NCBI GenBank assembly: GCA_947486785.1
Contig: CANKUU010000005.1
Coordinates: 1 to 64,000 of the forward strand
Length of the DNA: 64,000 bases
Direction of reading: 5' to 3'
From: an uncultured Flavobacteriaceae bacterium
GTDB taxonomy: Bacteria > Bacteroidota > Bacteroidia > Flavobacteriales > Flavobacteriaceae
Of this stretch, positions 13,969 through 63,974 are shown piece after piece. Made by a program: the position numbers and the translations under genes. Under the pieces are notes generated by a model, which did not search any database, was not told where the DNA came from, and was given only the letters and a program-made list of their open reading frames with translations. The number at the start of each line of letters is the position of its first letter. Position 1 is the stretch's first letter.

Positions 13969-14022
13969 CCACATAAAGGTTACTAAACTTTACATAAAGT
14001 CTGCTTAAAAGATAATTGAACC

Positions 14023-25986: not shown

Positions 25987-28900
25987 ATGAAAACAACACT
26001 ACTTAAAGTAACCCTCCATTTATTTACAGTCTTTCTACTAGGTATGGCTACAAAAGCCAATGCACAGGATGCTGTTGGCGATGAGTTTGAAGTAAATTTC
26101 ATCACATACAAAATCACATCAACCTCTCCCTACGAGGTTGAAACTTCCGATTATAACGAATCAGGTGTAACTACTGTTGTTATTCCTAGTACAGTAGAAG
26201 ATACTAATGGTGTTAGCTATAACGTGACAAGGGTAGGAGAAAATACTTTTAATAATGCAGCTCCCGAAGAACATATAAAAATTAGCAGTGTAGTCATTCC
26301 AAATAGCGTGACAAGTATAGGAGACTTTGCTTTTCAATTTAACAAATTAACTAGTGTAACCATCCCTAATAGCGTAACAACTATAGGAGGACATGCTTTT
26401 GGCATAAACGAATTAGAAAGTGTCACCATCCCCAATAGCGTGATAACTATAGGAAATTCTACTTTTAGTGGTAACAAATTAGAAAGTGTCACCATCCCTA
26501 GTAGCGTGACAAGTATAGGAAATGGTGCTTTTAGTCAGAACCCATTAACCAGTGTGACCTCACTAGCAACAACACCACCAACCATTACTACAGGAGAATT
26601 TTTTGATACTTTTGGAGGTACTGCCGCTCGTGCGAATATTGATGTGTTCGTGCCTAATGGTACTAGAGATTTATACCTAGCGAATGAATGGACTGGTTTT
26701 GAATCAGTAACCAGTCTTGATACTCCACCTACCACCACCACGCCAACTATTTCAGGCACCCATAATATTGGCGATACTTTAACGGCGAATTATACCTATT
26801 CCGATGCTGAAAGTGATGCGGAAGCAGGTACCACCTTTAAATGGTATCGTTCAAATGATGCCTCAGGTACAGGTAAGGCACAAATATCAGGTGCAGCTAG
26901 TCAAACGTATATGTTAGTTGCAGCCGATGCGGGTAAGTATATTAGTGTAGAAGTAACTCCCAAAAATACGAATGGCACTGGTACGGCAAAAGAGAGTACC
27001 TTGGTAGGGCCTGTTGATACTCCGCCAACCGTCAGTGATGTGACATTCAATGGCATAAGGATTATAGACAATACCTTAACGGGAAGTTATACCTATAACG
27101 ATGCGGATGGTACAACGGGCGATAATGCCGAATCTGGAACAACCTTTAAATGGTATCGTTCAAGTGTTTCTTCAGGCTCAGGCGCGACAGAAATTTCAGG
27201 CGCCACTAGTAGTAGCTATGTATTAACAGCAGCTGATGTAGGTCGGTATATTGGCTTTGAAGTAACACCGAAAAATGCTAAAGCTACAGGCACAGCAGTA
27301 AAATCTAACTTCCAAGGTCCAATTGCGGCCAAATCTGCCACCATAACAGCAGGCGGTGGCCGAGATGCGACTAAAATATCCTCCACCGCTACAAGTTTGA
27401 GTAGCGCAGTAAATGTTTATGATATAGTGATTAATGATGGTTTCACCTCAGATGGGCTACCAACGAAAGTCACTGAGATTAAATTTCATGCCTCTGGGTC
27501 GGCAAGCGCTGAACATTACCGAGATATTGAATGGCGTTTAGATGGTTTGGATATCACTAATATAGTGGGGTTTTATGCCAGTGGTGTGATCACCTTTAGT
27601 GGTTTACCTATTTCGGTAAGCAATGGCCGTAGTGAAACCTATACCCTTAAAGCCTATTACACAGATAATACCGCAATAACCGATAATGCCACCTTTATTT
27701 TATCTGTTGATGGTGATACCGATGTCACTTTAGGCACAAACAGTACTCAGATGGCAGCCACCTCACCTGTCACTAATGGCACCGGTATGAAAGCCGATGT
27801 TTTCGCCGTTAAGCTTGGATGGCTTACCGAGCCAGCAGGATCTGAATCGGGTAAAAAATTAACCACACAGCCGGTGGCGGCAGGAGTTGATGCAGCGGGT
27901 AATGTGGATAAAGATTTTGATGAAACATTTACCATACGTAAAGAATCAGGTAACGGCAGCCTAACATATACACCGGTCGCTACAGTAGATGGCGTAGCCA
28001 CTTTTACAGATGTGACTTATACCGCTACCGACGATAACCAACTATTCAGATTTGCCGTCGATGATGTAGATACTATCGGCATGAATTTTAGTAGACTTAT
28101 TGTAGAGTTAACATCTAATATTACAGCAACAAAACTAATCTATACCACCCAACCTGCACCAACAAGCTTTATTTCTGGTGAAGAAACGAGCTTAACGACG
28201 GTGCCAGTGGTGAAGGCCGTTAATGCGGATAATATTGTTGATAGAGATTTTACCAATACCATTCGATTAGAAGAAGTGAATGGCGCAGGCTCGGCGACCA
28301 TGAGTTTAGGTAGCCCAGCTGCCCCAAGTATTAGTAAAGCCGCTAACTCAGGTGTTGCTACTTTTTCTGGTCTAAAACTCACCTATACCGCATCGGGTAG
28401 CGCTGACGAAACCTTTAATTTAAAAGCCAGTGATACCGCTGCCAGTAGTGACATCTCGTCAATAGAAAGTGACCAATTATCGGTAAGTGTTATTGCCAAA
28501 GAAATTACGGTTGTGGCAGGTAGTGCACCTGAGGCAACCACCTTAAGTACCACTAAGAATACTGCTGCGGATGCAGTCACCTTGTTTGACTTTAAAATCA
28601 GTGATGCAGGTACAGGTGATATTAAGCCAGCTAAAATTACTGGATTAACAGTGCATGTTTCAGGGACTTCCACTGCCACTGATCGCGGTAAAGTCACATG
28701 GCGTTTAAATGGACCTAATGCTACCAATGTTGCAGGTACTTACGCTAGCAATAAAATCACTTTTAGTGGTTTAAATCTCAATATTGCTAATGGCGCTGAC
28801 GCAACCTATGCCATTACGGGGTATTTTAATGACAATACGGATTTAACAGACAATAAAACCTTTATCTTATCAATTGATGGCGATACTGATGTCACTTTGG

Positions 28901-30987
28901 GCTCAGGTAGTAGTTTACTAGCAACAGGTGTTGATGCTGTCACTAATGGTACAACTGGTTTTAAAACCGATGTTGTCGCCACTAAACTTGCCTTTACCAC
29001 ACAACCGAGCGGCTCAGTTTCAGGGATAAATCTCACCACACAACCTGTGGTTAAAGCAGTAGATGCCGTAGGTAATATTGATAAAGACTTTACTGAGACT
29101 ATCACCTTAAGCGAAGATAGTGCGGGTACATTAAGTGGCGCTTCAGAACAGGCTAGTGAAGGGGTTGCTACTTTTAATAACCTTAAATACAACGCCGCCG
29201 CAGATAAAGAAAATGTCACCTTAAGTGCCAATGATGAGGACAATGCTGGCAGTAACTTAAACACCATAAGTGCTACAAGTTTTATCTCTGATGTAGTGGC
29301 GACGAAACTGGTGCTTGAGACACCATTCCCAACCAATGTGCATAGTCAACAAAACTCAGATACAGATACCTTTAGTAATTTTGATACCAAATTAGCCGAC
29401 TCTTTTAAAGTAAAAGCGGTGAATGCGGAAAACATTGTCGATGTCGATTTTGTGCAAAGCGTTCGTTTATCTGAAACGAAAAAACCAAATGGTAGCACCA
29501 CTACCCTTACTTTTAATGGTGATACTGACAGCGATAATGCGACAGTTAGTGTTAACGCCATAGCGGGTATTGCCACCTTTACCAATACGGTATTTAGTTA
29601 TCAAGCTGGTAGTGCTAATGATACGGTACAACTAGCGGCCTCAGAAAGCGATAACAGTACCAACTCATTAACCCCAGCTTTAGGTGCGGAGGTGGTGGTA
29701 AATATTCTTCCTTACATTAAAGAAGAAAATGATGCCTTTAGTGTTAGTGTTGATGAAGATGTTAAAACCGACATTAACACCTCGGATATTCTCCTTAATG
29801 ATGCTAATGGTGACAACGTTACTCTGGTATTTAGTGTGGATAAAGGCTTGTTATTTACTACTGACCAAGATGGTATTATTGATGTTGATGGAAGTTCTGT
29901 GACAGAAACCGATAGGGTGACGATCTCTGGCAGCAATGATACTGCAGGTAGTGACACGATCACCTTGCAAGGGAATTACATGGATATAAACAACTATCTT
30001 GAAACGGTTCGTTTTAAATATCAAACAGCCGAAAATGATGATACCAACGCAACTTTAACGGGTGTCATTACAGATGAGTTTACTATTAATACCCATGTTG
30101 ATTGGAATATGTTAACTGAAACCATTGTAGTGACCGCAGTTAATGATGCGCCAACTATTACTGGTACGCCAATCACATCAGTAAACCAAGATGCAGCTTA
30201 TAGCTTTACACCAACAGCAACAGATATTGATACTGATGATACTACACTCACCTTTAGTATTATGAATAAACCAAGTTGGGCTAGTTTTAATACGGTTACA
30301 GGAGAATTAAATGGAACACCAACAAATAGTGATATTGGCACTACAGCCAGTATTATAATATCGGTTAGCGATGGTGAATTAATGACCTCTCTACCTGCAT
30401 TTAACCTTGAAGTGACTAAGGTCAATAATACGCCAAGCATTACTGGTACGCCAAGCACATCAGTAAACCAAGATACAGCTTATAGCTTTACTCCAACCGC
30501 AACAGATATTGATGCTGATGATACTCTCACTTTTAGTATTATGAATAAACCTACATGGGCTAGTTTTAATACGGTTACAGGAGAATTAGCTGGAACACCA
30601 ACAAATAGTGATGTTGGCACTACCAATAATATTGTTATTTCTGTTTCTGATGTAGAAAATGAATCTGCTAGCTTACCAGCTTTTAATATTGAAGTGGTAG
30701 CTACACCAACTTCTAGAGCTAAAAAATACGGCTTCTCCCCCAATGGAGATGGTATTAATGATACGTGGACTATTGATTATATCACTCAATACCCTAATAA
30801 TACGGTAAAAGTATTTAACAGATCTGGAAAACTTGTTTTTGAACAAAATGGATATGATAATACTTGGAACGGAATTTCGAATCAAATTAATACAAGTGTA
30901 AAGTTACCCGTAGGAGCTTATCTATTTGTGATAGACCTTAAGAGTGGAGAAAAATTAATAAAAGGATGGGTGTACATCAATTATTAA
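25987..30987 (+). CDS. Giant mosaic adhesin-like surface protein with type B T9SS sorting domain
   Basis: Predicted surface protein of 1666 residues. After the signal peptide (to TKANAQ, residue ~27) come BspA/TpLRR-type leucine-rich repeats (~100-190). Two Ig-like modules follow (~244-342 and ~343-445; FKWYRS, ITVEVTP-like strands). Next are two long related blocks (from ~452 and ~839; FILSVDGDTDVTLG and FILSIDGDTDVTLG), each with Ig-like TTQP-VKAVDA--NIDKDF modules, then a cadherin-like block (~1240-1385) and two 94-residue Ig repeats (~1389-1574). The sorting domain starts near 1578 (FSPNGDGINDTW). Residues ~245-1385 have higher GC than the ends, suggesting acquisition. Its ligand is unknown. 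Confidence 0.85.
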   Translation: MKTTLLKVTLHLFTVFLLGMATKANAQDAVGDEFEVNFITYKITSTSPYEVETSDYNESGVTTVVIPSTVEDTNGVSYNVTRVGENTFNNAAPEEHIKISSVVIPNSVTSIGDFAFQFNKLTSVTIPNSVTTIGGHAFGINELESVTIPNSVITIGNSTFSGNKLESVTIPSSVTSIGNGAFSQNPLTSVTSLATTPPTITTGEFFDTFGGTAARANIDVFVPNGTRDLYLANEWTGFESVTSLDTPPTTTTPTISGTHNIGDTLTANYTYSDAESDAEAGTTFKWYRSNDASGTGKAQISGAASQTYMLVAADAGKYISVEVTPKNTNGTGTAKESTLVGPVDTPPTVSDVTFNGIRIIDNTLTGSYTYNDADGTTGDNAESGTTFKWYRSSVSSGSGATEISGATSSSYVLTAADVGRYIGFEVTPKNAKATGTAVKSNFQGPIAAKSATITAGGGRDATKISSTATSLSSAVNVYDIVINDGFTSDGLPTKVTEIKFHASGSASAEHYRDIEWRLDGLDITNIVGFYASGVITFSGLPISVSNGRSETYTLKAYYTDNTAITDNATFILSVDGDTDVTLGTNSTQMAATSPVTNGTGMKADVFAVKLGWLTEPAGSESGKKLTTQPVAAGVDAAGNVDKDFDETFTIRKESGNGSLTYTPVATVDGVATFTDVTYTATDDNQLFRFAVDDVDTIGMNFSRLIVELTSNITATKLIYTTQPAPTSFISGEETSLTTVPVVKAVNADNIVDRDFTNTIRLEEVNGAGSATMSLGSPAAPSISKAANSGVATFSGLKLTYTASGSADETFNLKASDTAASSDISSIESDQLSVSVIAKEITVVAGSAPEATTLSTTKNTAADAVTLFDFKISDAGTGDIKPAKITGLTVHVSGTSTATDRGKVTWRLNGPNATNVAGTYASNKITFSGLNLNIANGADATYAITGYFNDNTDLTDNKTFILSIDGDTDVTLGSGSSLLATGVDAVTNGTTGFKTDVVATKLAFTTQPSGSVSGINLTTQPVVKAVDAVGNIDKDFTETITLSEDSAGTLSGASEQASEGVATFNNLKYNAAADKENVTLSANDEDNAGSNLNTISATSFISDVVATKLVLETPFPTNVHSQQNSDTDTFSNFDTKLADSFKVKAVNAENIVDVDFVQSVRLSETKKPNGSTTTLTFNGDTDSDNATVSVNAIAGIATFTNTVFSYQAGSANDTVQLAASESDNSTNSLTPALGAEVVVNILPYIKEENDAFSVSVDEDVKTDINTSDILLNDANGDNVTLVFSVDKGLLFTTDQDGIIDVDGSSVTETDRVTISGSNDTAGSDTITLQGNYMDINNYLETVRFKYQTAENDDTNATLTGVITDEFTINTHVDWNMLTETIVVTAVNDAPTITGTPITSVNQDAAYSFTPTATDIDTDDTTLTFSIMNKPSWASFNTVTGELNGTPTNSDIGTTASIIISVSDGELMTSLPAFNLEVTKVNNTPSITGTPSTSVNQDTAYSFTPTATDIDADDTLTFSIMNKPTWASFNTVTGELAGTPTNSDVGTTNNIVISVSDVENESASLPAFNIEVVATPTSRAKKYGFSPNGDGINDTWTIDYITQYPNNTVKVFNRSGKLVFEQNGYDNTWNGISNQINTSVKLPVGAYLFVIDLKSGEKLIKGWVYINY
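26287..26550 (+). repeat. Four tandem 66-base leucine-rich repeats
   Basis: Units begin at 26287, 26353, 26419 and 26485, exactly 66 bases (22 residues) apart. Each encodes SVTIPNSVT-IG--AF--N-L, the Treponema/BspA-type leucine-rich repeat consensus. DNA identity between units is high, so unit number could vary by recombination. Confidence 0.85.
30151..30708 (+). repeat. Two tandem 282-base Ig-like repeats
   Basis: The segments starting at 30151 and 30433 are near-identical at DNA level over most of 282 bases (94 residues). Both encode SVNQD-AYSFTPTATDID, SIMNKP-WASFNTVTGEL and GTPTNSD. This is the putative Ig (He_PIG) domain pattern. The second copy runs into the sorting domain. Confidence 0.85.
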
Positions 30988-45935: not shown

Positions 45936-46481
45936 TTATACAAAACTATTTTCTGGCACCTTACCTTTAACGCCTTTAAAAAAGGTGTTAATTTTTTCAA
46001 AATCTGCTTGTTTATCCTCTGAAACATTAAAAGGTTCTGCGACTATAACTTGCTTATTTTCAAAATCAAAAGCAATCATAACAATGGGCACATTCGCGGT
46101 TTTAGCAATATAATAAAACCCGGTTTTTAAAGTATTTACTTGCTTTCTGGTACCTTCTGGTGCTAAACTTAGCCGAAAAACTTCTTTTTTCTTAAAAACA
46201 TTTGCCGTTGCTGTTACAAAGTCTGTAGATTTTGTTCGGTCTATGGGTGTGCCACCCATCCATCGAAAATACCAACCAAAAGGAGCTCTAAATAGGCTTT
46301 TTTTACCCACAAAATTTATTTCTGCTTTCCAAACGTTTCGAATCAAAATACCAATGTAGAAATCATGCCAACTGGTATGCGGAACTACAGGGAGTACGCA
46401 CTTTTTAATGTGAAACGGAAATTCTCCTTGTATTTTCCATCCCATTAACTTGAAGTAAATAAATTTTGCAATTTTGTGCAT
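45936..46481 (-). CDS. PlsC-like 1-acyl-glycerol-3-phosphate acyltransferase family protein
   Basis: About 181 residues with the acyltransferase motifs HTSWHDF (H-x4-D form) and LSLAPEGTRK. GKKSLFRAPFGWYFRWMGGTPIDR carries the substrate-binding block. It is shorter than classic PlsC and probably acylates a lipid or phospholipid at the inner membrane. It is the last gene of the kdsB operon, so an envelope-lipid role is plausible. ATG 46481 is chosen; the frame's first start is TTG. Confidence 0.88.
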   Translation of the reverse strand: MHKIAKFIYFKLMGWKIQGEFPFHIKKCVLPVVPHTSWHDFYIGILIRNVWKAEINFVGKKSLFRAPFGWYFRWMGGTPIDRTKSTDFVTATANVFKKKEVFRLSLAPEGTRKQVNTLKTGFYYIAKTANVPIVMIAFDFENKQVIVAEPFNVSEDKQADFEKINTFFKGVKGKVPENSFV

Positions 46482-46508
46482 GATATTCAAACATTAACGG
46501 TGCGATGC

Positions 46509-47636
46509 CTATATTTTTTCGTAAATCTTCCTTAATCTTTCAGGAGTAATAGTATCTCTCCAGTTTGGTCCAAGTGCATTTTCCCAAAGCGGATGCATTC
46601 CCATCGCAACAGAGATCATGGTATCAAAATCAGAATCGCTCATGTTAGCACAAACATTTTTTGGTAGATGTATGTTATGCCTGCTTCGCATTTTATTAAA
46701 AAGTTTTACCCCATCAGGATAAAATTCAGATAAATGTTGAAAAACTAAGCAGTTTCCAAGACCATGCTTTATACCCAGCGAATACCCTAAACCATAGCTT
46801 AATGCATGCGCCACGCCTACTTGAGAGTAAGCAATACTCATACCACCATGCCAAGAAGCCATCATCAATTTATTTCGTGAATCTTCTGACGACAAATCAC
46901 CTAAAAAAACCTCCTCACACAAGGCTAATGCTTTCTCACCATAACTTTGACTAAACGCATTTAAATACGTACCATTAAGAGATTCCACACAATGAATATA
47001 GCAATCCATACCAGTATAAAACCATTGTTCTTTAGAAATACCTTGTGTCAAATCAGGATCTAAAACAACTTGATCAAAAGTGGTGTAATCTGAATTAATA
47101 CCTAATTTTTTTTCAGGCCCTAGTAAAACTGTTGTTCTAGAAACCTCGGCTCCTGTTCCGCTAATGGTAGGCACACCAACATGGTATATCGCTGAATTGT
47201 TTACCAAATCCCAACCTTGATACCGAGCAGCCCCCCCTTTATTGGTGAGCATAAGTGCCACCGCTTTTGACAAATCTAATAAAGTACCGCCCCCTATGCC
47301 TACTATACCTGAGGGTAATTCTGAAAACTTAGATTTTATTTGGTGTACTAAAGCATCTACTTGTTCTGTTTTTGGCTCTTCATTCGCCGAAATAAAAATA
47401 ATCTGATCATTAAAAATAAGCGGTATTCTTTTTACTAAGTCTTGTGTTTCAAAAACATCATCTACAAGAAAAACAAAAGGAGCGTCAGAATGCGCTCTTT
47501 TGGGCATTAAAATATCCCCCAATTGGTCAAAGCTACCATTACCAAATACTACTCTTGGCACCAAGGGTAAATTACGAAATACCGTTTTTTTTCTCACCGT
47601 TCGGTTTTCTACTTCAATATCATTTTTTACTTCCAT
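46509..47636 (-). CDS. Iron-containing alcohol dehydrogenase family, KdnB-like (Kdo 8-oxidase candidate)
   Basis: 375-residue member of the Fe-ADH/dehydroquinate synthase superfamily. The nucleotide loop is GIGGGTLLDLSKAVAL. Metal-ligand regions are GMDCYIHCVE, GVAHALSYGLGYSLGIKHGLGN. In Shewanella, KdnB oxidises the C8 hydroxyl of Kdo before KdnA aminates it. Position two genes from kdsB supports that role, but no kdnA aminotransferase is in the window. A different short-chain polyol dehydrogenase is the alternative. Confidence 0.75.
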   Translation of the reverse strand: MEVKNDIEVENRTVRKKTVFRNLPLVPRVVFGNGSFDQLGDILMPKRAHSDAPFVFLVDDVFETQDLVKRIPLIFNDQIIFISANEEPKTEQVDALVHQIKSKFSELPSGIVGIGGGTLLDLSKAVALMLTNKGGAARYQGWDLVNNSAIYHVGVPTISGTGAEVSRTTVLLGPEKKLGINSDYTTFDQVVLDPDLTQGISKEQWFYTGMDCYIHCVESLNGTYLNAFSQSYGEKALALCEEVFLGDLSSEDSRNKLMMASWHGGMSIAYSQVGVAHALSYGLGYSLGIKHGLGNCLVFQHLSEFYPDGVKLFNKMRSRHNIHLPKNVCANMSDSDFDTMISVAMGMHPLWENALGPNWRDTITPERLRKIYEKI

Positions 47637-47644
47637 ACGAAAAA

Positions 47645-48343
47645 CTATAAATGCTTTAAAACATCTTTTAAACTATTAACTCTTAAAAATCTATCTTCAT
47701 TCTCTTTTACTGAACATTCTTCATGTTGCCATGTGGTATGAAAAGGTACATGTATAGCTTTAGCGCCTATATTCACCAACGGTAATATATCTGATTTTAA
47801 AGAATTACCAATCATCAAAAACTCTTTTACATCGATTTTTAAATACGCTAATAATTGTAAATAATTCTCTTCCTTTTTATCGCTTAATATCTCAATATGA
47901 TGAAAATATTTACTTAAACCAGATTTTTTAATTTTTCTTTCTTGATCTAATAAGTCACCTTTTGTTAAGACAATCAGTCGATAGTTATCTTTAAGTTGGC
48001 TGAGCACTTTATTTACATCCTCCAATAACTCTACCGGATGTGCTAACATCTTTTTACCTAGATTCAAAATAGTAGAAATAGTTGCTTGAGAAATTGTATT
48101 ATCCGAAATTTCTAAAGCAGATTCTATCATCGATAAAACAAAACCCTTAATACCATACCCATAGATTGCTAAATTTTTAATTACCATTTTAAAAAGCTCC
48201 TGCTCTATTCTATTTTTGGTTTCAAAACCATTTAAGAGTGTCGCAAATTCTGCTTCCGCTGCCCTAAAATATGTTTCATTAACCCATAGGGTATCATCTG
48301 CATCAAATCCAATAACTTTTATATTACTATAATCTACTTCCAT
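47645..48343 (-). CDS. HAD family hydrolase
   Basis: 232 residues with HAD motif I ([10 protein letters not shown]), motif II (LIVLTKGD) and motif III/IV ([20 protein letters not shown]). The insert between motifs I and II is a helical cap as in YjjG/phosphoglycolate-type phosphatases. It is too long and capped to be a standard KdsC, yet it overlaps kdsB by 10 bases, so it may act on a sugar phosphate of that pathway. Confidence 0.88.
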
Positions 48344-49062
48344 GCTAGCTGAGCTCGCTTTAGATCTTCAGGGGTATCAATTTCAATGCCACTTACTACT
48401 GTTTCCACCATTTTTATTTTCTTACCATACTCTAAATATCGAATGGCTTCAATTTTTTCTGTAGCCTCTAAACTTAACATTGGTAGACGCTGAAAATCCA
48501 TCAAGGCACTTTTTCTAAAAGCATAAATGCCCTTATGTTTGTAATAATGGGTTTTACTGGATGCAGCTCTAGGGTAAGGTATTGGAGATCGAGAAAAATA
48601 TAAAGCGAAATTTCGATTATCAACAATAACCTTCACCGTATTAGGGTTTTCAATTTCTTCTTTCTCCTCAATTTTAACCATTAATGAAGCTAAATCTATC
48701 TCTAACGCTGTATCTGTTTTAAAAACTTCTAACACATCGGTTAAACTTTGAGCGTCTATAAACGGTTCATCTCCTTGTACGTTAACAATAATATCTACTT
48801 CCATATCAACAACTGCTTCAGCTATTCTATCGCTTCCACATTCATGCTCTTTAATACTCATTAAAGCCTTACCCCCTGCCTCAGTAATTGTATTAAAAAT
48901 TATACTATTATCAGTAACCACATACACTTCATCAAATAAATTGGTTTGAACAGCTGCTTCGTAGGTGCGCACGATTACGGGCTTACCAGAAAGGTCTTGC
49001 ATTAGTTTTGCAGGAAACCTTGAGGCCGCATATCTTGCGGGTATCATTGCTATAATTTTCAC
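48334..49062 (-). CDS. kdsB: 3-deoxy-manno-octulosonate cytidylyltransferase
   Basis: Activates Kdo (or 8-amino-Kdo) with CTP to give CMP-Kdo for lipid A-core synthesis. [24 protein letters not shown] is interrupted only by the usual family variation and holds the CTP loop; NVQGDEPFI and [12 protein letters not shown] are the other signatures. At 242 residues it is full length. It starts with GTG. It overlaps the HAD gene by 10 bases. Confidence 0.95.
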
Positions 49063-55327: not shown

Positions 55328-57229
55328 TTGGAACCTTTTATAGTATCAGCACGCAAGTATAGACCACAAACATTTAAAGATGTAGTGGGGCAGCAAGCCA
55401 TTACCAATACCTTGCTGAATGCTATTGAAAATGATCATTTAGCGCAAGCCTTACTATTTTGCGGCCCAAGGGGCGTAGGTAAAACTTCTTGCGCTAGAAT
55501 TTTAGCCAAAAAAATAAATCAGGATGGTAATCTAAACGAAAATGAAGATTATGCATTTAATATTTTTGAGTTAGATGCAGCTTCTAATAATTCTGTAGAT
55601 GATATTCGTAATTTAAACGATCAGGTTCGCATTCCTCCACAATCAGGAAAGTACAAGGTTTATATTATTGATGAGGTACATATGTTATCTTCAAATGCCT
55701 TTAATGCATTTTTAAAAACCCTTGAAGAGCCTCCAAAACATGCTATTTTTATCCTTGCAACTACAGAAAAACACAAAATAATACCAACTATCCTTTCGCG
55801 CTGTCAGATATTCGATTTTAAACGGATTACAGTAAAAGATGCGGCTAATTATTTGAAATATATTTCAGAAAATCAAGGCATAGAAGCCGAAGACGATGCG
55901 CTTCATATTATCGCTCAAAAAGCAGATGGTGCCATGAGAGATGCGCTCTCTATTTTCGACAGAGTAGTCAGCTTTTGTGGTAAACATCTAACAAGAAAGG
56001 CTGTTACTGAAAATTTAAATGTTCTCGATTATGAAACTTATTTTGAAGCTACCGATTATATCCTAAGCCATAACATTCCTGAGTTACTGCTTTTATTTAA
56101 TCGTACTTTGGCTTTGGGTTTTGAAGGTCACAATTTTATTGGCGGCTTAGCTACTCATTTTAGAGACTTAATGGTGTGTCAACACCAGAATACTATAAAT
56201 TTATTAGAAGTTAGTGATACTGCAAAACAAACCTATTTAGAACAATCTAAAAAGACAACGAGCTCATTTTTAATTCAAGCTTTAACTATTGCAAATGACT
56301 GTGATCTAAAATACAAGACGAGCAAAAACCAGCGACTTCTAGTAGAGTTATCATTAATGAAATTAGCATCCATCGGTTTTGATGGAGAAAAAAAAAATTC
56401 TGAATCCGAAGCTATAACTGGCGAAAAAATAGATTTCATTGCTCCAGCCTCTTACTTTAGCGCATATACCTCATCAAAAAAATCGACAGAAGAAACTCAA
56501 ACTAGCTTAAAAGATGGTGTCAAATTAGCTCCTGAAAAGGCCATTTCACCATCTAACACCGTAAAAAAACATAAAGAGCTTCTACATCAAAATGAACAAA
56601 AATCTGGAAGTGCTGAGTCTAATCCGACAATCGCAAAAAAAAATATTGATGTTGCTAACGATGAAATAACCGCGACCCCTAAAACAATCATACCGCCTAA
56701 ACTTGATGTAGATAAAACCAAATCTGAAATAAATACCATTAATAAAGAGCCTTTAGCTATTGCTCCAAAAAGGGTTTCTGCTCTTTCTATATCAAGTTTA
56801 AAAGCAAAAAAGGTACATCAACAAAATAGAAAAGATCAGGTTATAGATGAAAGCCAACTGCCAAAGGAAAGTTTCAGCGAAGAATCACTACGAAAACTCT
56901 GGGCTGAATTTGTTAATAAAACAGAACTTAAAGGTCAAAAAATTCTTGCTTCAAATTTAAATATAGACCTTCCTAAGTTAAAAAATGAAACTACTATCTG
57001 CATTGAGCTACCTAACGAGTCTATGAAGAAAGAAGTGGAAAGAGAGCAGTACGATTTAATGGAATTCTTGAAAAGTAAGTTAAAAAATTATTTCATTAAT
57101 TTAGAGATAACGGTAAATGAAACAGCTATTAAAAAATTTGCTTTTACACCCGAAGAGAAGTATAACAAACTAAGAGATAAAAATCCTGTAATCGATTTAC
57201 TCCGAAAAGAATTTGATTTAGATTTTTGA
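55328..57229 (+). CDS. dnaX: DNA polymerase III subunit gamma/tau
   Basis: Clamp-loader ATPase of the replicative polymerase. The conserved start is EPFIVSARKYRPQTF, initiated by TTG. Walker A is FCGPRGVGKTSC, Walker B is VYIIDEVHMLS, and the arginine-finger motif is ILSRCQIFDFK. The zinc-binding cysteines that normally lie just before FELDAASN are replaced by an acidic loop (NLNENEDYAF), common in this phylum. After about residue 360 a disordered linker leads to a C-terminal helical part. The 3' end overlaps the convergent TMEM220-like gene by 12 bases. Confidence 0.93.
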   Translation: MEPFIVSARKYRPQTFKDVVGQQAITNTLLNAIENDHLAQALLFCGPRGVGKTSCARILAKKINQDGNLNENEDYAFNIFELDAASNNSVDDIRNLNDQVRIPPQSGKYKVYIIDEVHMLSSNAFNAFLKTLEEPPKHAIFILATTEKHKIIPTILSRCQIFDFKRITVKDAANYLKYISENQGIEAEDDALHIIAQKADGAMRDALSIFDRVVSFCGKHLTRKAVTENLNVLDYETYFEATDYILSHNIPELLLLFNRTLALGFEGHNFIGGLATHFRDLMVCQHQNTINLLEVSDTAKQTYLEQSKKTTSSFLIQALTIANDCDLKYKTSKNQRLLVELSLMKLASIGFDGEKKNSESEAITGEKIDFIAPASYFSAYTSSKKSTEETQTSLKDGVKLAPEKAISPSNTVKKHKELLHQNEQKSGSAESNPTIAKKNIDVANDEITATPKTIIPPKLDVDKTKSEINTINKEPLAIAPKRVSALSISSLKAKKVHQQNRKDQVIDESQLPKESFSEESLRKLWAEFVNKTELKGQKILASNLNIDLPKLKNETTICIELPNESMKKEVEREQYDLMEFLKSKLKNYFINLEITVNETAIKKFAFTPEEKYNKLRDKNPVIDLLRKEFDLDF

Positions 57230-57577
57230 TCTTTTCGTTAAATATGTTCTAATTGCAAAGCTAAATAGAACAATTGCAATAATTAATAGTCCAAAAGCCT
57301 CGCGACCTTCTTCTACATTTTTAATATCGCCTGCACCAATTTCAAAACCTTCAAACTTTTCAGGGTAGCAGTAAAAAAAACCGCCAAAAGCCATAATACT
57401 AGAAAATAATAGCGGTGTAAACGATATTTTATTTAGTGCAAATGCTAATGAAAAAAGTGCTGCCATACTCCAAACAACAACCCATATAAAGGTATCAGGA
57501 TCATTATACTGCAATGCTGCAGCAACAACAAATAGTACTGCAAATAAAAATCCAAGAATTCTAAACAATTGTTTCAT
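57218..57577 (-). CDS. TMEM220-like four-helix membrane protein
   Basis: 119 residues with four hydrophobic helices; the N-terminal FLFAVLFVVAAALQYNDPD is the TMEM220 family pattern. Function is unknown. It starts 20 bases after eboF on the same strand, so it is probably the last gene of the ebo operon. It overlaps the end of dnaX. Confidence 0.8.
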   Translation of the reverse strand: MKQLFRILGFLFAVLFVVAAALQYNDPDTFIWVVVWSMAALFSLAFALNKISFTPLLFSSIMAFGGFFYCYPEKFEGFEIGAGDIKNVEEGREAFGLLIIAIVLFSFAIRTYLTKRSKI

Positions 57578-57597
57578 ATTTATATTTTTAATAGGGG

Positions 57598-58974
57598 CTA
57601 AGTTACCTTTACGTGAGCTTTTAAAACATGATAAACCTCAGTTGGTTTAATTATTTCTTCTCTAATAAGTTCTTTTTTGTTGCTAATAAAAATAGGATAA
57701 TCTTCGGTGTCCTCAGGTATTCTGCCATGAGAACCCTTTACCAATTCTGCTTTTAGCGGAATAATATCTAAAACCGTTCTAAAACCCAATTTTTTCTTTA
57801 ACAACTTACCAATCACTTTTAACATAACCAGCTTATCTTTAGGGTCTGTCAACATTTCAACAGGGTCGTAGCCTGGTTTTTTATGAATATCAACCATACG
57901 AGCATAATCGGGTGCTAGTGCATCATCAAACCAAAAATAATAGGTAAACCAAGAGTTGGCATCGGCTAAAACCACCAAATCACCACAACGATCATGATTC
58001 AATTTTACAGCTTCTAATTCATCGTCAGAAAATACTTTTTCTACACCTTTTACCTTTTCCAATAAGGCCTTTACCTCTTGCTTTAGAGCAATGTCGTTTA
58101 AATAAATATGTGCAATTTGATGGTCAGCAACCGCAAAAACTTTACTTGCACCAGTATCTAAAAGTTCTAATCCTCTTTCTACTCGAATAGAAATAAAACC
58201 TTCTTTGCGCAATATTCTATTTAAATGAATTGGATTATTCACATTGGTGATGCCGTATTCCGATAGCAAAACAACATTAGTATCTAACTTTTCATAATAA
58301 TCCACCAACTGCTTAACCACCAGATCAATCTCATTTAAATCTTTAGAAATAACCTCAAAGTTTAAACCATGTCGTTGCAAATTATAATCTAAATGTGGCA
58401 AATAAATAAAGGTTAAGGTTGGATCGTGAAGCTCATCTGTTTTAATAGCGGCATTTGCAATCCACTGGCTTGACTTTATGCTTGTTTTTGGGCCCCAAAA
58501 GTGGAATAAAGGAAAAGTACCTAATTCCTTTTGTAGTGTATCACGTAATTCGGCTGGATGCGAGTAGAAGTCGGGAATTTTTCTGCCATCTGCCAAATAA
58601 TTTGGTCTTGGCGTGGTACTAAAATCGACAGTAGAATACATATTATACCACCAAAAATGATTGGCACATGTAAAATTGGGGTTTTCATATTTAAGTTCAT
58701 CCCAAATTTTATCTTGCTGTACAAGCTTATTAGACTGCCTCCAAAATTTAACTTCGCATTCTTCTTTAAAGTACCATCCATTACCAACCACTCCATGTTC
58801 TGAAGGATGTTTACCCGTCAAGTATGTTGATTGTGCCGAGCAAGTAACCGCAGGCAATACAGGGCTAATGAATGATGCTTTTCCTCTATTCAAAAATGAT
58901 TTAATAAAAGGGGTGTGTTTACCGATAAGACGCTTGGTTAAGCCAACAACATTTATAACAACTGTTTTCTGCAT
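57598..58974 (-). CDS. eboF: EboF, alkaline phosphatase-fold (nucleotide pyrophosphatase-like) protein
   Basis: 458 residues of the alkaline phosphatase/NPP superfamily. The nucleophile region LPAVTCSAQSTYLTGKHPSE aligns with the NPP block, with Thr44 in the nucleophile position, and VKGSHGRIPED keeps the distal His. However, the usual first-metal Asp (V-D-G-L) reads VVGL, and the S-D-H-G-M ligand pair reads SEYGI. Catalysis may therefore be unusual. Sixth of the ebo genes, 6 bases after eboE. Confidence 0.88.
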   Translation of the reverse strand: MQKTVVINVVGLTKRLIGKHTPFIKSFLNRGKASFISPVLPAVTCSAQSTYLTGKHPSEHGVVGNGWYFKEECEVKFWRQSNKLVQQDKIWDELKYENPNFTCANHFWWYNMYSTVDFSTTPRPNYLADGRKIPDFYSHPAELRDTLQKELGTFPLFHFWGPKTSIKSSQWIANAAIKTDELHDPTLTFIYLPHLDYNLQRHGLNFEVISKDLNEIDLVVKQLVDYYEKLDTNVVLLSEYGITNVNNPIHLNRILRKEGFISIRVERGLELLDTGASKVFAVADHQIAHIYLNDIALKQEVKALLEKVKGVEKVFSDDELEAVKLNHDRCGDLVVLADANSWFTYYFWFDDALAPDYARMVDIHKKPGYDPVEMLTDPKDKLVMLKVIGKLLKKKLGFRTVLDIIPLKAELVKGSHGRIPEDTEDYPIFISNKKELIREEIIKPTEVYHVLKAHVKVT

Positions 58975-58980
58975 GCTACT

Positions 58981-60174
58981 TTATAGTCTATTTTTTAACC
59001 AATTCATCTCTCGAACAATACTTTGAGATAAATCTTTCTTTAATTCGCTTGGTAACACATCCCAAGTATACGTTTCAATTTCTAAATGCTCAGAAACAGG
59101 GTCTTGTTTTAAATAAGCAAGTACTTTTAAGATATGGTCTTGTGTAGAATACAACTTACCAAATTGCTCTAAAAAAATAGGAACATGAAAATGCGCTCTT
59201 AATTCTGTAAAGCTATTTTTAGACTCAAGAATCATCGGTAAATCAGCATAGGTTTTCACCTTTCCAGAAACTTCTTGGGTCACTTGATGTAAATAGGTGG
59301 GCTCGTCAAAACGACTTAATGTACTCCATATTTCTTGTACATCAACCTCGTTATAGAGAATTTTTAAAGCAGCACTTACCTGAATTTTGCCAATTTTTAA
59401 ACCAGCATCTTTAAACTTTTTAAAAGTACTTTCTGGTTCTTCGTATGCAAGTGAAAAGTGACAAATATCATAACATACCGTAATATATCGCTTAATTGTT
59501 TTTTCAATATCAGCCTCAGCTATTGTACTTTTTTCTTTTAATATAGTAGATGCAATTGGAATTAAATAGGCGTTAAAAAACTCAAGTAGCTCATCGCTAT
59601 TTTCTAATAAACCATCTGGCTCTGGTTCAATATCTAAATGTAAATATGTATTAGATTTTTTTTCTATTTCTTGTAATTGCAATACTATTTCTGCTAAATG
59701 CTTTGCACCTGAAGTTAAGGCTGTTTCCTTTTTCTTTTCCGAATTATGCCAATATTTATAACTTATAGGTGAAGTTGATATACCTCCAGACATTCCGTTT
59801 GGCAATAGCTTGGCCAGCTGTTGAAATAATCGCTTAGTGTAGACTAATCTTTCGTTGGTAGTCCAATCTGGAGAGTGCACATTTTCTTTTACCCGTTCGT
59901 TATGAAAATTGCCATAAGGAAAACCATTCATAGTAAATACATAGATCTCATTTTTAGAAAGCCATTCTTGAAATTCTGTCAAATTAGAACCTTGATTTAA
60001 CTCTTCACTAGCCTTATTAGATAAACGTAAACCTAAACCAAAATGAGCCTCAGGACAGACTTCTCTTTTAATTTTCGGAACATACAACTTTAAGTTTCGA
60101 AAGGTACTATTCCAATCAGAACCACCATGTATATTGGTACAGTAACTCACATGAAACAAATTTTTAATACGCAT
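58981..60174 (-). CDS. eboE: EboE, TIM-barrel metabolite traffic protein
   Basis: 397 residues resembling xylose isomerase-like TIM barrels (sugar-phosphate isomerase/epimerase fold). FHVSYCTNIHGGSDW opens the family. THLDIEPEPDG-type acidic strands (YLHLDIEPEPDGLLE) and VCYDICHFSLAYEEP carry likely metal ligands. It belongs to the EboE family of the ebo cluster. The substrate is not known. It is spaced 6 bases from each neighbour. Confidence 0.88.
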   Translation of the reverse strand: MRIKNLFHVSYCTNIHGGSDWNSTFRNLKLYVPKIKREVCPEAHFGLGLRLSNKASEELNQGSNLTEFQEWLSKNEIYVFTMNGFPYGNFHNERVKENVHSPDWTTNERLVYTKRLFQQLAKLLPNGMSGGISTSPISYKYWHNSEKKKETALTSGAKHLAEIVLQLQEIEKKSNTYLHLDIEPEPDGLLENSDELLEFFNAYLIPIASTILKEKSTIAEADIEKTIKRYITVCYDICHFSLAYEEPESTFKKFKDAGLKIGKIQVSAALKILYNEVDVQEIWSTLSRFDEPTYLHQVTQEVSGKVKTYADLPMILESKNSFTELRAHFHVPIFLEQFGKLYSTQDHILKVLAYLKQDPVSEHLEIETYTWDVLPSELKKDLSQSIVREMNWLKNRL

Positions 60175-60180
60175 CTTTTA

Positions 60181-61338
60181 TCAGCTATTCAGTTTACATC
60201 GTTTATATAATTCATCAATTGCAAGTCGCATTTTTACTTTATCTATTTGATTAACATCGTGTTTAACTCCTATGCCGTTAATCAATGTAATACATAATTC
60301 ACCACCTAAATGCTCTTGAAATTCTTGTAGCCCTTTTAGCAATACCTCTATCTCAGATTCGGTTTCAACGGGTATGCTAAGATCGAAACCAATTTGCTGC
60401 ATTAGGTTTAAGATTCTTTTTAATTCAGATTCTGTAATCAGTTCTAACAAATAAGCATAAGTAACATCTAAAGCAATGCCTTTAGCTACAGCCTCGCCAT
60501 GACGAAGTTCGTAGTTTGTAATTTGCTCCATCTTATGTGCTGCCCAATGACCAAAGTCTAAAGGTCTTGAAGAGCCGCTCTCAAAAGGGTCTCCCCCTTG
60601 CGCAATGTGTTGCATATGCATTTCTGCGCATCTATAAATCATATAATTCATGGCTTTCATATCTCGTTTTTGAATAGACGAGGCATGTTCTTCTAAGTAT
60701 TTAAAAAAGACTTCATCTTTAATTAAAGCAACTTTTATAGCCTCAGCAACACCAGATATCCAATCGCGTTGCTCTAATGTTTTTAAAAAATTACTATCGT
60801 TAATTATGGCAAAAGGTGGCGCAAATGTGCCTAAGAAATTCTTTTTACCAAAAGTATTTATACTATTCTTAACGCCTACTGCAGAATCATTTTGTGATAA
60901 AACCGTGGTTGGAATTCTAACTAATTTAACTCCTCTGTGCGCCACAGCAGCAGCATAACCCACCATATCAATAACAGCACCACCACCTATTGCTACAACA
61001 AAAGAATGTCTATCTATATGAAACTCATTTATGGCTTTTAAAACTAGATTTACTTGCTCATAGTCATTTTTACATTGTTCACCCCCTTTAACAATAAGGC
61101 TTGAAGTATACTTTAACTTTGAATTATGAGCTTTGCAATATGCTATTATATCGTTAATCAAATTTGCATGATGTTTGGCAACACCATCATCAATTACAAA
61201 TAAAAGTTTACTATTTGTTGTTTCTGTCAAGACATCAAAAACAGCACTAAACTGGTTATTTTTTAGATTAAATAAGCCTTGTGTAAAGTATAATTTATAC
61301 TGATACGAAACAGAAAAAGATTGTGCTATAGGTTTCAA
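60181..61338 (-). CDS. eboD: EboD, 3-dehydroquinate synthase-like sugar phosphate cyclase
   Basis: 385-residue sugar phosphate cyclase homologue. NAD loop AIGGGAVIDMVGYAAAVAHRG, then IPTTVLSQNDSAVGVKNSIN. The metal ligands are in GVAEAIK (Glu), LDFGHWAAHKM (His) and ELRHGEAVAKG (His). All catalytic elements appear intact, so it probably makes a cyclitol. Context assigns it to EboD rather than the shikimate enzyme AroB. It starts 15 bases after eboC. Confidence 0.88.
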   Translation of the reverse strand: MKPIAQSFSVSYQYKLYFTQGLFNLKNNQFSAVFDVLTETTNSKLLFVIDDGVAKHHANLINDIIAYCKAHNSKLKYTSSLIVKGGEQCKNDYEQVNLVLKAINEFHIDRHSFVVAIGGGAVIDMVGYAAAVAHRGVKLVRIPTTVLSQNDSAVGVKNSINTFGKKNFLGTFAPPFAIINDSNFLKTLEQRDWISGVAEAIKVALIKDEVFFKYLEEHASSIQKRDMKAMNYMIYRCAEMHMQHIAQGGDPFESGSSRPLDFGHWAAHKMEQITNYELRHGEAVAKGIALDVTYAYLLELITESELKRILNLMQQIGFDLSIPVETESEIEVLLKGLQEFQEHLGGELCITLINGIGVKHDVNQIDKVKMRLAIDELYKRCKLNS

Positions 61339-61353
61339 TAGAATTAAATTTAG

Positions 61354-62244
61354 TTAGGTAACTGTAAAAAGCTTTGAAAGTAACATTGATAATGGTAATA
61401 GTAACAAAATCATCAAACCATACCACCATACTGAAAAACCAACAGCAAAAGCAGCATCTAATACAATCAACGATAAAACCCCCGAAATAACCGCTTTTTT
61501 AATATTTTCTGGTGAGTTTAACCGGTATGCGTTAAGCAATGGCTTGAAAACTAAAAATGCAAAAAGCAGTAAAAAAGGAATTGTTTGCAAAATTTGGTCT
61601 GTTTTAGCTACTACCAAACTTACAACGCCAAAAATTACAAGAGCGTACAAAATACTTGCCCAAATAATATGATTCTTATTATTACCATGTACTTCTCCTC
61701 TACTTATCAATGTAATAGCGAATATATATACTAACGGAATTATGGCAAACCACCAGTTGTTTAACACTCCTAAGATTGACATTCCTAGCAATAGATTTAA
61801 ACTACGGCACAAACCCATATTAAAAGGACCTAAAAAGTCATACTTTTTAAAAAAAGAATTATAACAGACAATCGCAACTGCAAGGATTAAAGCAAGATAT
61901 GCGCTTAGGCGACCTACATTATAAGCCAAAACAATTCCTATAAAAAGTAAAATTACAGCATACAAAGCAGCAGATTTCACAGATATTAATCCGCTGGGCA
62001 AAGGTCTTTCAGGTCGCTCAATAGCGTCAAGCTTTGCATCAAAAACGTCGTTAAGTACAACTCCTCCCGCATATAAAAAAACAGAACTAAATACCAAATA
62101 AAACAAAGACAAATAAGAACCCTGCCCATCGCCTGAACCTAATAATAGACCTGCAATAGCTGCCCCAGCAAAAATATCGGCTGCGGCAGTAGGAAGGTTT
62201 GCTGGCCTTGCTAAACTTAAATAGCCTTTAAAAATCGCATTCAT
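61354..62244 (-). CDS. eboC: EboC, UbiA-like prenyltransferase
   Basis: 296-residue membrane protein of the UbiA superfamily with about eight helices. The first Asp-rich motif is complete (NDVFDAKLDAIERPERPLPSG). The second is not a normal D-x-x-x-D; the same loop reads SRGEVHGNNKNH. It is expected to prenylate the EboD-derived product at the membrane. It is directly abutted by eboB with no spacer. Confidence 0.88.
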   Translation of the reverse strand: MNAIFKGYLSLARPANLPTAAADIFAGAAIAGLLLGSGDGQGSYLSLFYLVFSSVFLYAGGVVLNDVFDAKLDAIERPERPLPSGLISVKSAALYAVILLFIGIVLAYNVGRLSAYLALILAVAIVCYNSFFKKYDFLGPFNMGLCRSLNLLLGMSILGVLNNWWFAIIPLVYIFAITLISRGEVHGNNKNHIIWASILYALVIFGVVSLVVAKTDQILQTIPFLLLFAFLVFKPLLNAYRLNSPENIKKAVISGVLSLIVLDAAFAVGFSVWWYGLMILLLLPLSMLLSKLFTVT

Positions 62245-63153
62245 TTAAACGATTTTATCGGTATCTATTTTTGGCTCTTGCCCTCTTAAGACACTATTAT
62301 CATTAAATAATTTGGTTTGATTAATTCCTTCAGGGTTTAACCAATCCGATTCTTTCATTTTACCATTTTTACCAAAAACATCAAGTGCATTTTGGTAGCA
62401 AGTTTTTACAACGTGTGCTCTATCAATTCCTCTCTTTAACATTAATGCAGCGGTTTTAGGCACTGCTAAAGGATCGCTAACACCCCAATCTGCAGAGCTA
62501 TCAACAATTATATTGGTGCTTCCGTATTTTTCAACAACAGCTACCATTCGCTCATTACCCATTTTAGTTTTAGGATAAATGGTGAAAGCAGCTATAAAAC
62601 CACGATCTAATACCTCTTTAACTGTTTCTTCGTTATTATGGTCTATTACCACCATTGACGGATCTAGACCATGTTCTAAGCAGACTTCCATACTTTTTAT
62701 TGTTCCTGCTTTTTTGTCTCTATGCGGTGTATGTACTTGCACTACCATACCAAGTTCTTTGGCCATCTCTAATTGTAGCCTAAAGTATTTGTCTTCTGCT
62801 GGAGTTTGATCATCATAACCAATTTCACCAATAGCTACCACATTTTGTTTATGTACATAAAGCGGAAGAAGCTCCATTACCTGTTCGGCTAAAGCCTCAT
62901 TATTCGCTTCTTTAGAATTTAAACCAATCGTACAATAATGTTGAATTCCAAATTGACTTGCTCTAAAAGGCTCCCAACCCACCAGGCTGCTGTAGTAATC
63001 TTGAAAAGATCCTACCTGGGTTCTAGGTTGCCCTAACCAAAATGAGGGTTCTATTAACGCTACTACACCAGCATCGGCCATAGCTTGATAATCATCAGTT
63101 GTTCTCGACGTCATGTGCACATGAGGATCGATTATCATCATTTTTTTTTCCAT
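62245..63153 (-). CDS. eboB: EboB, TatD family hydrolase
   Basis: 302-residue amidohydrolase-like TIM barrel. The metal motif IDPHVHMTSR lies near residue 10; VAIGEIGYD, VQVHTPHRDK, VVIDHNNEE and DSSADWGVSDP carry further metal ligands. It belongs to the TatD-like group seen in ebo clusters. The hydrolysed bond is unknown. It starts 2 bases after eboA. Confidence 0.88.
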   Translation of the reverse strand: MEKKMMIIDPHVHMTSRTTDDYQAMADAGVVALIEPSFWLGQPRTQVGSFQDYYSSLVGWEPFRASQFGIQHYCTIGLNSKEANNEALAEQVMELLPLYVHKQNVVAIGEIGYDDQTPAEDKYFRLQLEMAKELGMVVQVHTPHRDKKAGTIKSMEVCLEHGLDPSMVVIDHNNEETVKEVLDRGFIAAFTIYPKTKMGNERMVAVVEKYGSTNIIVDSSADWGVSDPLAVPKTAALMLKRGIDRAHVVKTCYQNALDVFGKNGKMKESDWLNPEGINQTKLFNDNSVLRGQEPKIDTDKIV

Positions 63154-63155
63154 AA

Positions 63156-63974
63156 TTAATTTTTTAGGCTACTCCAGCTTATATTTTTTGTTTTAACTTG
63201 TTCTAGTAGTTCTGGGTATTGTTCTAATAGCTTTTGAGCTTCTGTGTGTTTTGAATAATAAAGACAAAGAGCTGCTGCTTGGTTTTCTTTATGATTTTTA
63301 CTAGCTAATAAGCGTTTCATATCAATTAAAAGAGTCTCATCTATAAATTTTGATACTGGTCGCCAAAAAAGAGGGTCGATCGTTCTTGATGCTGCCCAGC
63401 GCTCATGAGCATAATCTGAAATAATTCTTGTTAAATCTCTATTAGCTCTTTCATCTATATTCAATATTGCGCTTAAATCACCTTGCATAAAAGCCGTTTT
63501 AAGAAACATCTGGTTCCATTGCTGCTCGTTAAAATACATTGAAGGGTATGGATTATTAAACGCTATGGCATTAAAAATCGTTGAAATATTTGTTCGTAAA
63601 GCTTCAACCGCTACATTTTTGTATTTTTCAGGATTGGGTAAGAAAATTAAAAATTTCAAAAAAGTCTCTAATTCGCCGGTATCTGAAACTTGAATTATAG
63701 TAGCAACTTGGGGACTAAAAAAATCTTCATCAGCCTTTAAAACTTCTAATAACAAATACATTCTAGTAATTTGTTGCAAAGTACCTTTCTGAATTTGTAT
63801 ATAATTTTTTAAATCAGTAGCTGCAGCTGAAATATCAAAATTTTCGTTAACACTTACCTTATTTGCTATTAAACTATAGGTGAGAAAGAGCTCCTTAGCA
63901 GATTTTTCTTCAGTTATTTTGGTGATTTTATCGCTTAACCAATGTTCAACTGCCAAATTCATATTGGACTTCAT
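63156..63974 (-). CDS. eboA: EboA domain protein
   Basis: 272-residue, mostly helical soluble protein with no catalytic motif visible. SDKITKITEEKSAKELFLTYS and AFNNPYPSMYFNEQQWNQMFLKTAFM fit the EboA family. It leads the operon. ATG 63974 is taken; a second ATG lies four codons in. Its promoter is at or beyond the window edge. Confidence 0.8.
   Translation of the reverse strand: MKSNMNLAVEHWLSDKITKITEEKSAKELFLTYSLIANKVSVNENFDISAAATDLKNYIQIQKGTLQQITRMYLLLEVLKADEDFFSPQVATIIQVSDTGELETFLKFLIFLPNPEKYKNVAVEALRTNISTIFNAIAFNNPYPSMYFNEQQWNQMFLKTAFMQGDLSAILNIDERANRDLTRIISDYAHERWAASRTIDPLFWRPVSKFIDETLLIDMKRLLASKNHKENQAAALCLYYSKHTEAQKLLEQYPELLEQVKTKNISWSSLKN

Follow-up and report, generated by a model that had tools for sequence, protein, structure and literature searches.

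According to the main text of Yurchenko 2016 (PMC5133447), ebo operons of the ABCDEF type are found in Bacteroidota, cyanobacteria and also some plastids (those of eustigmatophytes), and this order is apparently ancestral in Bacteroidetes and cyanobacteria. A translocation role comes from deletions in the scytonemin ebo cluster of Nostoc punctiforme (Klicki 2018, PMC6282210): by the main text of that study, loss of the cluster, or of eboA, eboB, eboC, eboE or eboF singly, leaves no scytonemin and keeps the monomer in the cytoplasm, and its authors proposed a cyclitol lipid carrier. The closest EboC with a measured activity is Ubi-297 of Maribacter sp. MS6 (main text of PMC9235831), which shares family and gene neighbourhood with the EboC studied here and, like it, belongs to marine Flavobacteria; the latter is known from sequence.

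We analysed a stretch of 64,000 nucleotides (the window) from contig CANKUU010000005.1 of an uncultured Flavobacteriaceae bacterium. Its ebo operon is a further case of the ABCDEF layout already known in Bacteroidota, with the same six genes, order, strand and families as the operons of Yurchenko 2016. It differs from them in a TMEM220-family gene that follows eboF, the string 'TMEM' being absent from the main text of PMC5133447 (supplementary tables aside). The genes eboA, eboB, eboC, eboE and eboF have homologues in the N. punctiforme cluster, while eboD lies inside the operon in the window and nearby, in the opposite direction, in N. punctiforme (PMC6282210, main text); no scytonemin genes were seen in the window. 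We give an even chance to the reading that the operon makes an amphipathic prenylated cyclitol that aids metabolite transfer to the periplasm, with TMEM220 as a further membrane part.

The six Ebo proteins and the place of EboD

Six consecutive minus-strand open reading frames (ORFs) encode EboA to EboF in the order ABCDEF, with gaps of 2, 0, 15, 6 and 6 bases; recomputed coordinates agree throughout with the first-pass annotation of this DNA. That annotation had taken 57218-63974 for a complete ebo operon of six genes. Completeness is borne out by EboC and EboE scores over curated cut-offs, by a match of EboA to its domain model and by the placing of EboD in the EboD clade, and all six genes are there; a seventh minus-strand gene inside the interval, TMEM220 (57218-57577), had gone uncounted. 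Searches of Pfam and NCBIfam matched EboC, EboE and the EboA domain to Ebo models, and returned superfamily matches, with no Ebo-specific model, for EboB and EboF.

EboA (63156..63974, minus strand) scores 144.1 bits on the domain model NF035938 (cut-off 50) and misses the stricter EboA_family model NF035937 (166.7 against a cut-off of 320, NCBIfam), which leaves it assigned to the EboA domain and not to that subfamily. It is an alpha-solenoid and a probable scaffold: the AlphaFold model of the window version has helices throughout (predicted local distance difference test, pLDDT, 94.9), and a structure search gave only weak PDB matches to helical repeats of the ARM/HEAT type (best E 0.052). 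An in-frame ATG 13 codons upstream of the called start, at about position 64013 and beyond the window, gives 285 residues. Mechanically called EboA starts coincide with that column in 12 of the 15 relatives compared, and on these alignments the true start probably lies there, beyond the window edge.

EboB (62245..63153, minus) is a TatD-like metallo-dependent hydrolase (PF01026, 64.2 bits), whose best solved relative is AF_1765 (3guw, 65.3 bits; TatD 1j6o, 26.5 bits). It is the most conserved Ebo protein, with a median identity of 87% in 17 family loci (56-73% for EboA and EboC to EboF) and 70% over all compared loci. EboE (58981..60174, minus) is a xylose-isomerase-like triosephosphate isomerase (TIM) barrel scoring 482.5 bits on NF035939 (cut-off 250). 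EboF (57598..58974, minus) resembles type I phosphodiesterases and nucleotide pyrophosphatases (PF01663, 210.2 bits), and its only solved relative is the distant 1ei6 (22.5 bits). Identity to relatives in ebo loci is 63-95% for EboB and 45-82% for EboF (some EboF matches are partial), and both proteins are assigned by synteny.

EboC (61354..62244, minus) is assigned to the UbiA superfamily of intramembrane prenyltransferases. It reaches 373.5 bits with its own model NF035940 (cut-off 250), whereas no other NCBIfam model gives more than 149.3. Its first Asp motif, NDxxDxxxD, is present in 115 of 116 aligned sequences. The best solved relative is digeranylgeranylglyceryl phosphate (DGGGP) synthase (6m31, 58 bits). 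DGGGP synthase (EC 2.5.1.42) is an ether-forming prenyltransferase that acts on glycerol phosphate.

EboD (60181..61338, minus, TTG start) has PRK06203/NF004852 as its best model (557.2 bits, cut-off 333; NCBIfam) and falls under the aroB cut-off (TIGR01357, 238.5 against 305). In a maximum likelihood tree of 41 sequences, the 18 EboD and the 18 AroB each form a clade of their own (100/99 for both), and the EboD clade sides with three annotated sedoheptulose-7-phosphate cyclases and a Nostoc mycosporine-type cyclase (100/99); the program flagged long branches and an uneven composition in these data. A separate AroB is encoded on contig 16 of the same genome (328 bits on the aroB model). The active-site columns differ likewise: AroB has Arg-[KR]-x-L-N-[FY]-GHT plus a DKK motif, and the window EboD has SRPLDFGHWAAHK, without DKK. 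The conserved Arg of AroB, which we take to bind the carboxylate of 3-deoxy-D-arabino-heptulosonate 7-phosphate (DAHP), is Ser in the window EboD and Ser or Ala in other EboD. Where 18 of 18 AroB have Asn, EboD and all three annotated sedoheptulose-7-phosphate cyclases have Asp (Glu in the inosose synthase row, Ala in the mycosporine-type cyclase). E199, H264 and H280 of EboD, presumably metal ligands, are invariant across a 17-row alignment. Judged by its sequence, the window EboD is an EboD-clade sugar phosphate cyclase and not a 3-dehydroquinate synthase.

Pfam does assign family names of the aroB, ubiA and tatD type, as a chance run of housekeeping paralogues would have it, but the probability of such a run is practically negligible. 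Curated Ebo models, the EboD phylogeny and the gene order kept in relatives stand against it, and neither the EboD tree, the EboC model scores nor the best solved relative of EboB groups these proteins with AroB, UbiA or TatD. Housekeeping paralogy is thereby refuted for EboA, EboC, EboD and EboE; for EboB and EboF the argument is synteny. Homologues of the window genes recur in the same order in relatives' loci, which excludes a chance gene run.

What EboD does is illuminated by plasmid clusters in which another enzyme takes its place. A tblastn search of plasmids with EboE gave 47 records, 40 of them listed. By coordinates, inositol-3-phosphate synthase lies within 4 kb of EboE in 23 of the 24 actinobacterial records among these 40, many of them near-copies. 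Two Streptomyces loci of the SCO3242 type (L116 and L117) have the order inositol-3-phosphate synthase, SCO3242-family prenyltransferase, sugar phosphate isomerase/epimerase, EboA, EboB, EboE, EboF. They resemble the window in the row of EboA, EboB, EboE and EboF types and in a UbiA-family prenyltransferase; unlike the window they carry inositol-3-phosphate synthase and the isomerase/epimerase, have no EboD, and their prenyltransferase belongs to another family model. In Gemmatirosa (Gemmatimonadota, L252), EboE, EboB, EboF and a UbiA-family match are accompanied by matches to inositol synthase and the isomerase, and EboD has no match. EboD was not found in any of the four stretches checked (L116, L117, L252 and the Streptomyces locus L253). 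In the alphaproteobacterial, betaproteobacterial, Deinococcus and Bacteroidota plasmid clusters examined, a gene annotated as 3-dehydroquinate synthase occupies the EboD place. Since an unrelated cyclitol-making enzyme stands in for EboD in actinobacterial plasmids and one gemmatimonad, there is good evidence that EboD makes a cyclitol, and the ebo product should contain one. None of the open-licence papers listed by a literature search joins ebo to inositol synthase, and the word 'inositol' is absent from the main text of PMC5133447, PMC6282210 and PMC9235831.

TMEM220 beside the ebo genes

The TMEM220-family gene (57218..57577, minus; PF15071, 65.1 bits, gathering score 27, Pfam) lies 20 bases past eboF, and its 3' end overlaps by 12 bases the convergent dnaX (55328..57229, plus; NF011531, 696.6 bits, cut-off 685), which marks the downstream border of the operon. 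This candidate seventh part is a four-helix membrane protein: the AlphaFold model (pLDDT 93.1, 23 sequences) has helices at 3-25, 29-47, 53-70 and 85-118. M1, F16, N25, D26, D28, W32, E89, R92, E93 and G96 are invariant. Mean counts of Lys plus Arg are 1.9 at the N terminus, 3.6 at the C terminus, 0.1 in the loop between helices 1 and 2, and 1.3 in each of the other two loops, that between helices 3 and 4 being net acidic. By the positive-inside rule, the NDxD motif after helix 1 and the ExxRE motif at the start of helix 4 probably face the extracytoplasmic side.

Occurrence was compared in two genome samples. In 149 genomes from the family of the window's genome, TMEM220 is present in 22 of the 23 that bear EboE versus 10 of the 126 that lack it (in one of these, TMEM220 scores under the Pfam cut-off). 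The sole EboE-bearing genome without TMEM220, G021, shows only eboE of the ebo set in its 19.5-kb locus; it has no EboC over the cut-off genome-wide, and EboA, EboB, EboD and EboF, looked for at the locus only, were not seen. In a sample of 395 genomes of the phylum, TMEM220 is found in 24 of the 31 with EboC over the cut-off versus 26 of the 364 without (one of the 26 below the cut-off). The corresponding Fisher values, 1.2e-17 and 1.2e-18, assume that genomes are independent of one another, which is not the case.

A scan of genome contigs gave named loci for the best 80 of 579 relatives (47 Bacteroidota and 33 others, by NCBI names). Among these, TMEM220 flanks ebo in 16 loci from 10 named genera, all within the 47 Bacteroidota. 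Other neighbour families listed for the same 80 reach at most eight loci and four genera each, a comparison that favours TMEM220, since it was found with a profile built on ebo-adjacent copies while the other families were grouped by BLAST only. For placement we scanned 132 loci and dropped six without EboE; some genomes are present in both locus sets that make up the remaining 126. TMEM220 sits at the ebo edge in 41 of these, in four placements: downstream on the same strand (22, one with 3.2 kb between), upstream on the same strand (14), upstream on the opposite strand (4) and downstream on the opposite strand (1). An EboE tree of 124 rows (two loci with EboE under 300 residues left out), built by a quick method with support from the SH-like approximate likelihood ratio test (SH-aLRT) only and containing two identical EboE pairs, requires 14 changes, at least 10 of them forced by well-supported branches. 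The window TMEM220 had no match in the plasmid collection at E 0.01. We consider a functional association between TMEM220 and ebo more probable than its absence, yet TMEM220 can persist alone and unlinked. The link was not found in print among the open-licence PMC papers listed by the searches or in the main text, without supplementary tables, of PMC5133447, PMC6282210 and PMC9235831.

Proposed role and rival explanations

In the reading introduced above, EboD would cyclise a sugar phosphate (probably sedoheptulose 7-phosphate), and the resulting cyclitol would be finished by EboE, EboB and EboF (isomerase-like, hydrolase-like and phosphoesterase-like), EboF perhaps removing the phosphate in inositol-type clusters. 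EboC would then attach a prenyl chain to the cyclitol or cyclitol phosphate in the inner membrane, perhaps as an ether, as its motifs and its kinship to DGGGP synthase favour, with EboA as a scaffold. The prenylated cyclitol would serve as an amphipathic helper that moves a small metabolite to the periplasm. In Bacteroidota, TMEM220, with its conserved charged face probably outside the cytoplasm, would bind, flip or finish this lipid; that it is a seventh ebo component whose NDxD and ExxRE residues receive, flip or finish the prenylated cyclitol of EboC and EboD is a tentative proposal, to which we give somewhat less than an even chance. The first-pass annotation had supposed that the organism makes a cyclitol by EboD, prenylates it by EboC and exports it. 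This is plausible and is strengthened by the inositol synthase swap, with export as a conjecture; the assayed EboC homologues discussed below went unmentioned.

The present data fit the cyclitol lipid carrier model of PMC6282210 and, because TMEM220 often tracks ebo in Bacteroidota, add to the export model a candidate membrane protein. Deletion of ebo genes blocks the translocation of a sunscreen precursor in Nostoc, by the main text of that study, and two testable constraints are now added, a cyclitol product and a candidate membrane protein. If the proposal for TMEM220 is true, it would supply the missing membrane part of the export model and a bacterial handle on human TMEM220, which PMC6979480, in the part that concerns us, locates to the Golgi; by that report, knock-down of the protein breaks up this organelle and has an effect on the secretion of glycoproteins.

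Several observations weigh against a prenylated cyclitol. The ebo literature consulted (PMC5133447, PMC6282210 and PMC9235831, main text) reports no Ebo product. The Streptomyces locus L253, the exception among the 24 actinobacterial records, has EboB, EboE and EboF, but the 20 kb examined contain no EboD and no inositol synthase. At the site of the second Asp motif of DGGGP synthase, EboC has an altered, S-[RQ]-G-E type sequence, in which Glu184 is kept in 115 of the 116 sequences. No cargo or partner cluster was seen: the earlier statement that the window holds no pigment or secondary-metabolite genes stands for the 48 of 65 ORF rows (at least 100 aa) scanned with Pfam, the rest being mostly overlapping ORFs and those at 23-26 kb, and the paired biosynthetic cluster looked for beyond 64000 did not appear in the 10 kb read past the window edge. 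There is also direct biochemistry. In the main text of PMC9235831, 8-hydroxyquinoline-2-carboxylic acid (8-HQA) is farnesylated in Escherichia coli membranes by three EboC homologues, those of Maribacter, Zobellia and Algoriphagus. Of 14 aromatic acceptors, six gave product with the Maribacter enzyme, and a MenA homologue gave none; the words 'cyclitol' and 'inositol' do not occur in that text. The main rival holds that EboC prenylates 8-HQA or a similar compound to a farnesylated aromatic, quinoline-type product, with a cyclitol minor or absent. We judge this unlikely: the quinolines were substrates offered to the enzymes and not shown to be natural ones (PMC9235831, main text), no obvious quinoline-acid pathway genes occur among the window ORFs scanned, EboD is a sugar phosphate cyclase outside the AroB clade, and an aromatic-only pathway leaves unexplained why inositol-3-phosphate synthase is usual where EboD is missing. 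The same swap bears on a further alternative, in which the Ebo proteins form a complex that itself transports metabolites through the membrane, with no diffusible lipid. Such a complex would suit the alpha-solenoid EboA and the five single Nostoc deletions, which pile up the same monomer, in the cytoplasm only, without gene-specific intermediates (PMC6282210, main text). Exchange of a cyclitol synthase for an unrelated one, however, is reasonable if the protein acts as an enzyme but not if it is a structural subunit, and EboD retains its conserved residues and EboC its first motif. We hold the complex to be improbable.

The part given to TMEM220 meets its own objections. Outside the window's family, TMEM220 occurs in 20 of 27 EboC-bearing genomes, adjoining ebo in three and lying apart in 17; it does not adjoin ebo in 85 of the 126 loci, and it is beside ebo in none of the 33 non-Bacteroidota loci among the best 80. 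Its structure search gave no match at E below 1, a VKOR-like match (TMq 0.60, E 2.5) not being trusted. In three family genomes without an EboE match (G032, G037 and G126), the gene between dnaX and miaE is TMEM220; a fourth, G018, has TMEM220 at that site and ebo elsewhere. Together with the fast evolution of the protein (46% median identity in the family), these cases would be expected if TMEM220 simply travelled with the dnaX-miaE locus as a positional hitch-hiker and contributed nothing to ebo function. That explanation seems rather unlikely to us, if less so than an aromatic product. TMEM220 adjoins ebo on either side and either strand in loci of Sphingobacteriaceae, Chitinophagaceae, Cyclobacteriaceae and Hymenobacteraceae that have no dnaX or miaE match; the changes forced on the EboE tree and a co-occurrence that persists where the genes are unlinked also count against it, as does G021, where eboE alone remains at the site and TMEM220 is missing.

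Genomic setting and neighbouring genes

EboE exceeds its cut-off in 23 of the 149 family genomes. Seventeen of these loci lie between dnaX and miaE, as in the window, and four lie elsewhere; the remaining two are an orphan eboE at the dnaX-miaE site (G021) and a locus cut by a contig end on the dnaX side. Within the genus, an EboD-type second cyclase match occurs in 9 of 12 genomes (counting that of the window), and one of the three without is only 57% complete. The G+C content of the operon (0.33-0.35) is like that of its surroundings, so that recent horizontal transfer, judged by composition, is rejected. On the simplest reading, the operon is apparently old at the dnaX-miaE site and frequently lost. 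On the EboE tree the family loci group with named Flavobacteriaceae loci, which, like the type IX secretion genes of the window, makes the flavobacterial origin given by the first-pass annotation likely. Those with TMEM220 upstream of eboA (L058, L059 and L069) group with Flagellimonas, Allomuricauda and Snuella as a separate ebo lineage. EboE-bearing loci were found in ten phyla by the genome scan and in four more on plasmids. No full match to a Bacteroidetes promoter consensus was present between miaE and eboA.

Some loci hold single ebo genes. The orphan eboE of G021 (L088, 6555-7754) stands alone between dnaX and miaE, where relatives keep the full operon, and may be a decay stage or a separate use of EboE. 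One Rhodothermales genome has EboC over the cut-off (G494, L086) about 0.5 Mb from its EboE locus (L216), apparently on the same 2817622-base chromosome, and three relatives (L085, L102 and L103) have EboC without other ebo genes nearby.

Beside or inside ebo loci of one Bacteroidota, one betaproteobacterium and two cyanobacteria, a gene pair encodes a PF12902 ferritin-like protein and a protein of about 590-660 residues (L111, 1064-4124; L114, 2051-5069; L146, 10855-14136; L175, by BLAST only). We take PF12902 to be the VioB/RebD-type dimer synthase domain, and a non-scytonemin aromatic cargo is possible for these loci. In the Streptomyces plasmid L116, the record annotation gives a ScyD/ScyE-family protein and a multicopper oxidase (2948-4147 and 13110-14588) on the flanks of the inositol-type ebo cluster.

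The 10 kb beyond the window, read by eye from translations, encode miaE-like, ppk, sixA, pdxH, RNase Z, STAS-like, pyrB, pyrR and rpsA genes. Within the window, a minus-strand run at 45936-49062 (acyltransferase, iron-dependent alcohol dehydrogenase, haloacid dehalogenase (HAD) hydrolase and cytidylyltransferase) is perhaps, at a guess, a sugar nucleotide set of the 3-deoxy-D-manno-octulosonate (Kdo) type. Type IX secretion genes are also present, and 25987-30987 encodes a 1666-residue protein that carries a type IX secretion signal besides leucine-rich repeats and immunoglobulin-like domains; it lies where the G+C content is 0.41-0.42 against 0.32-0.34 on both flanks.

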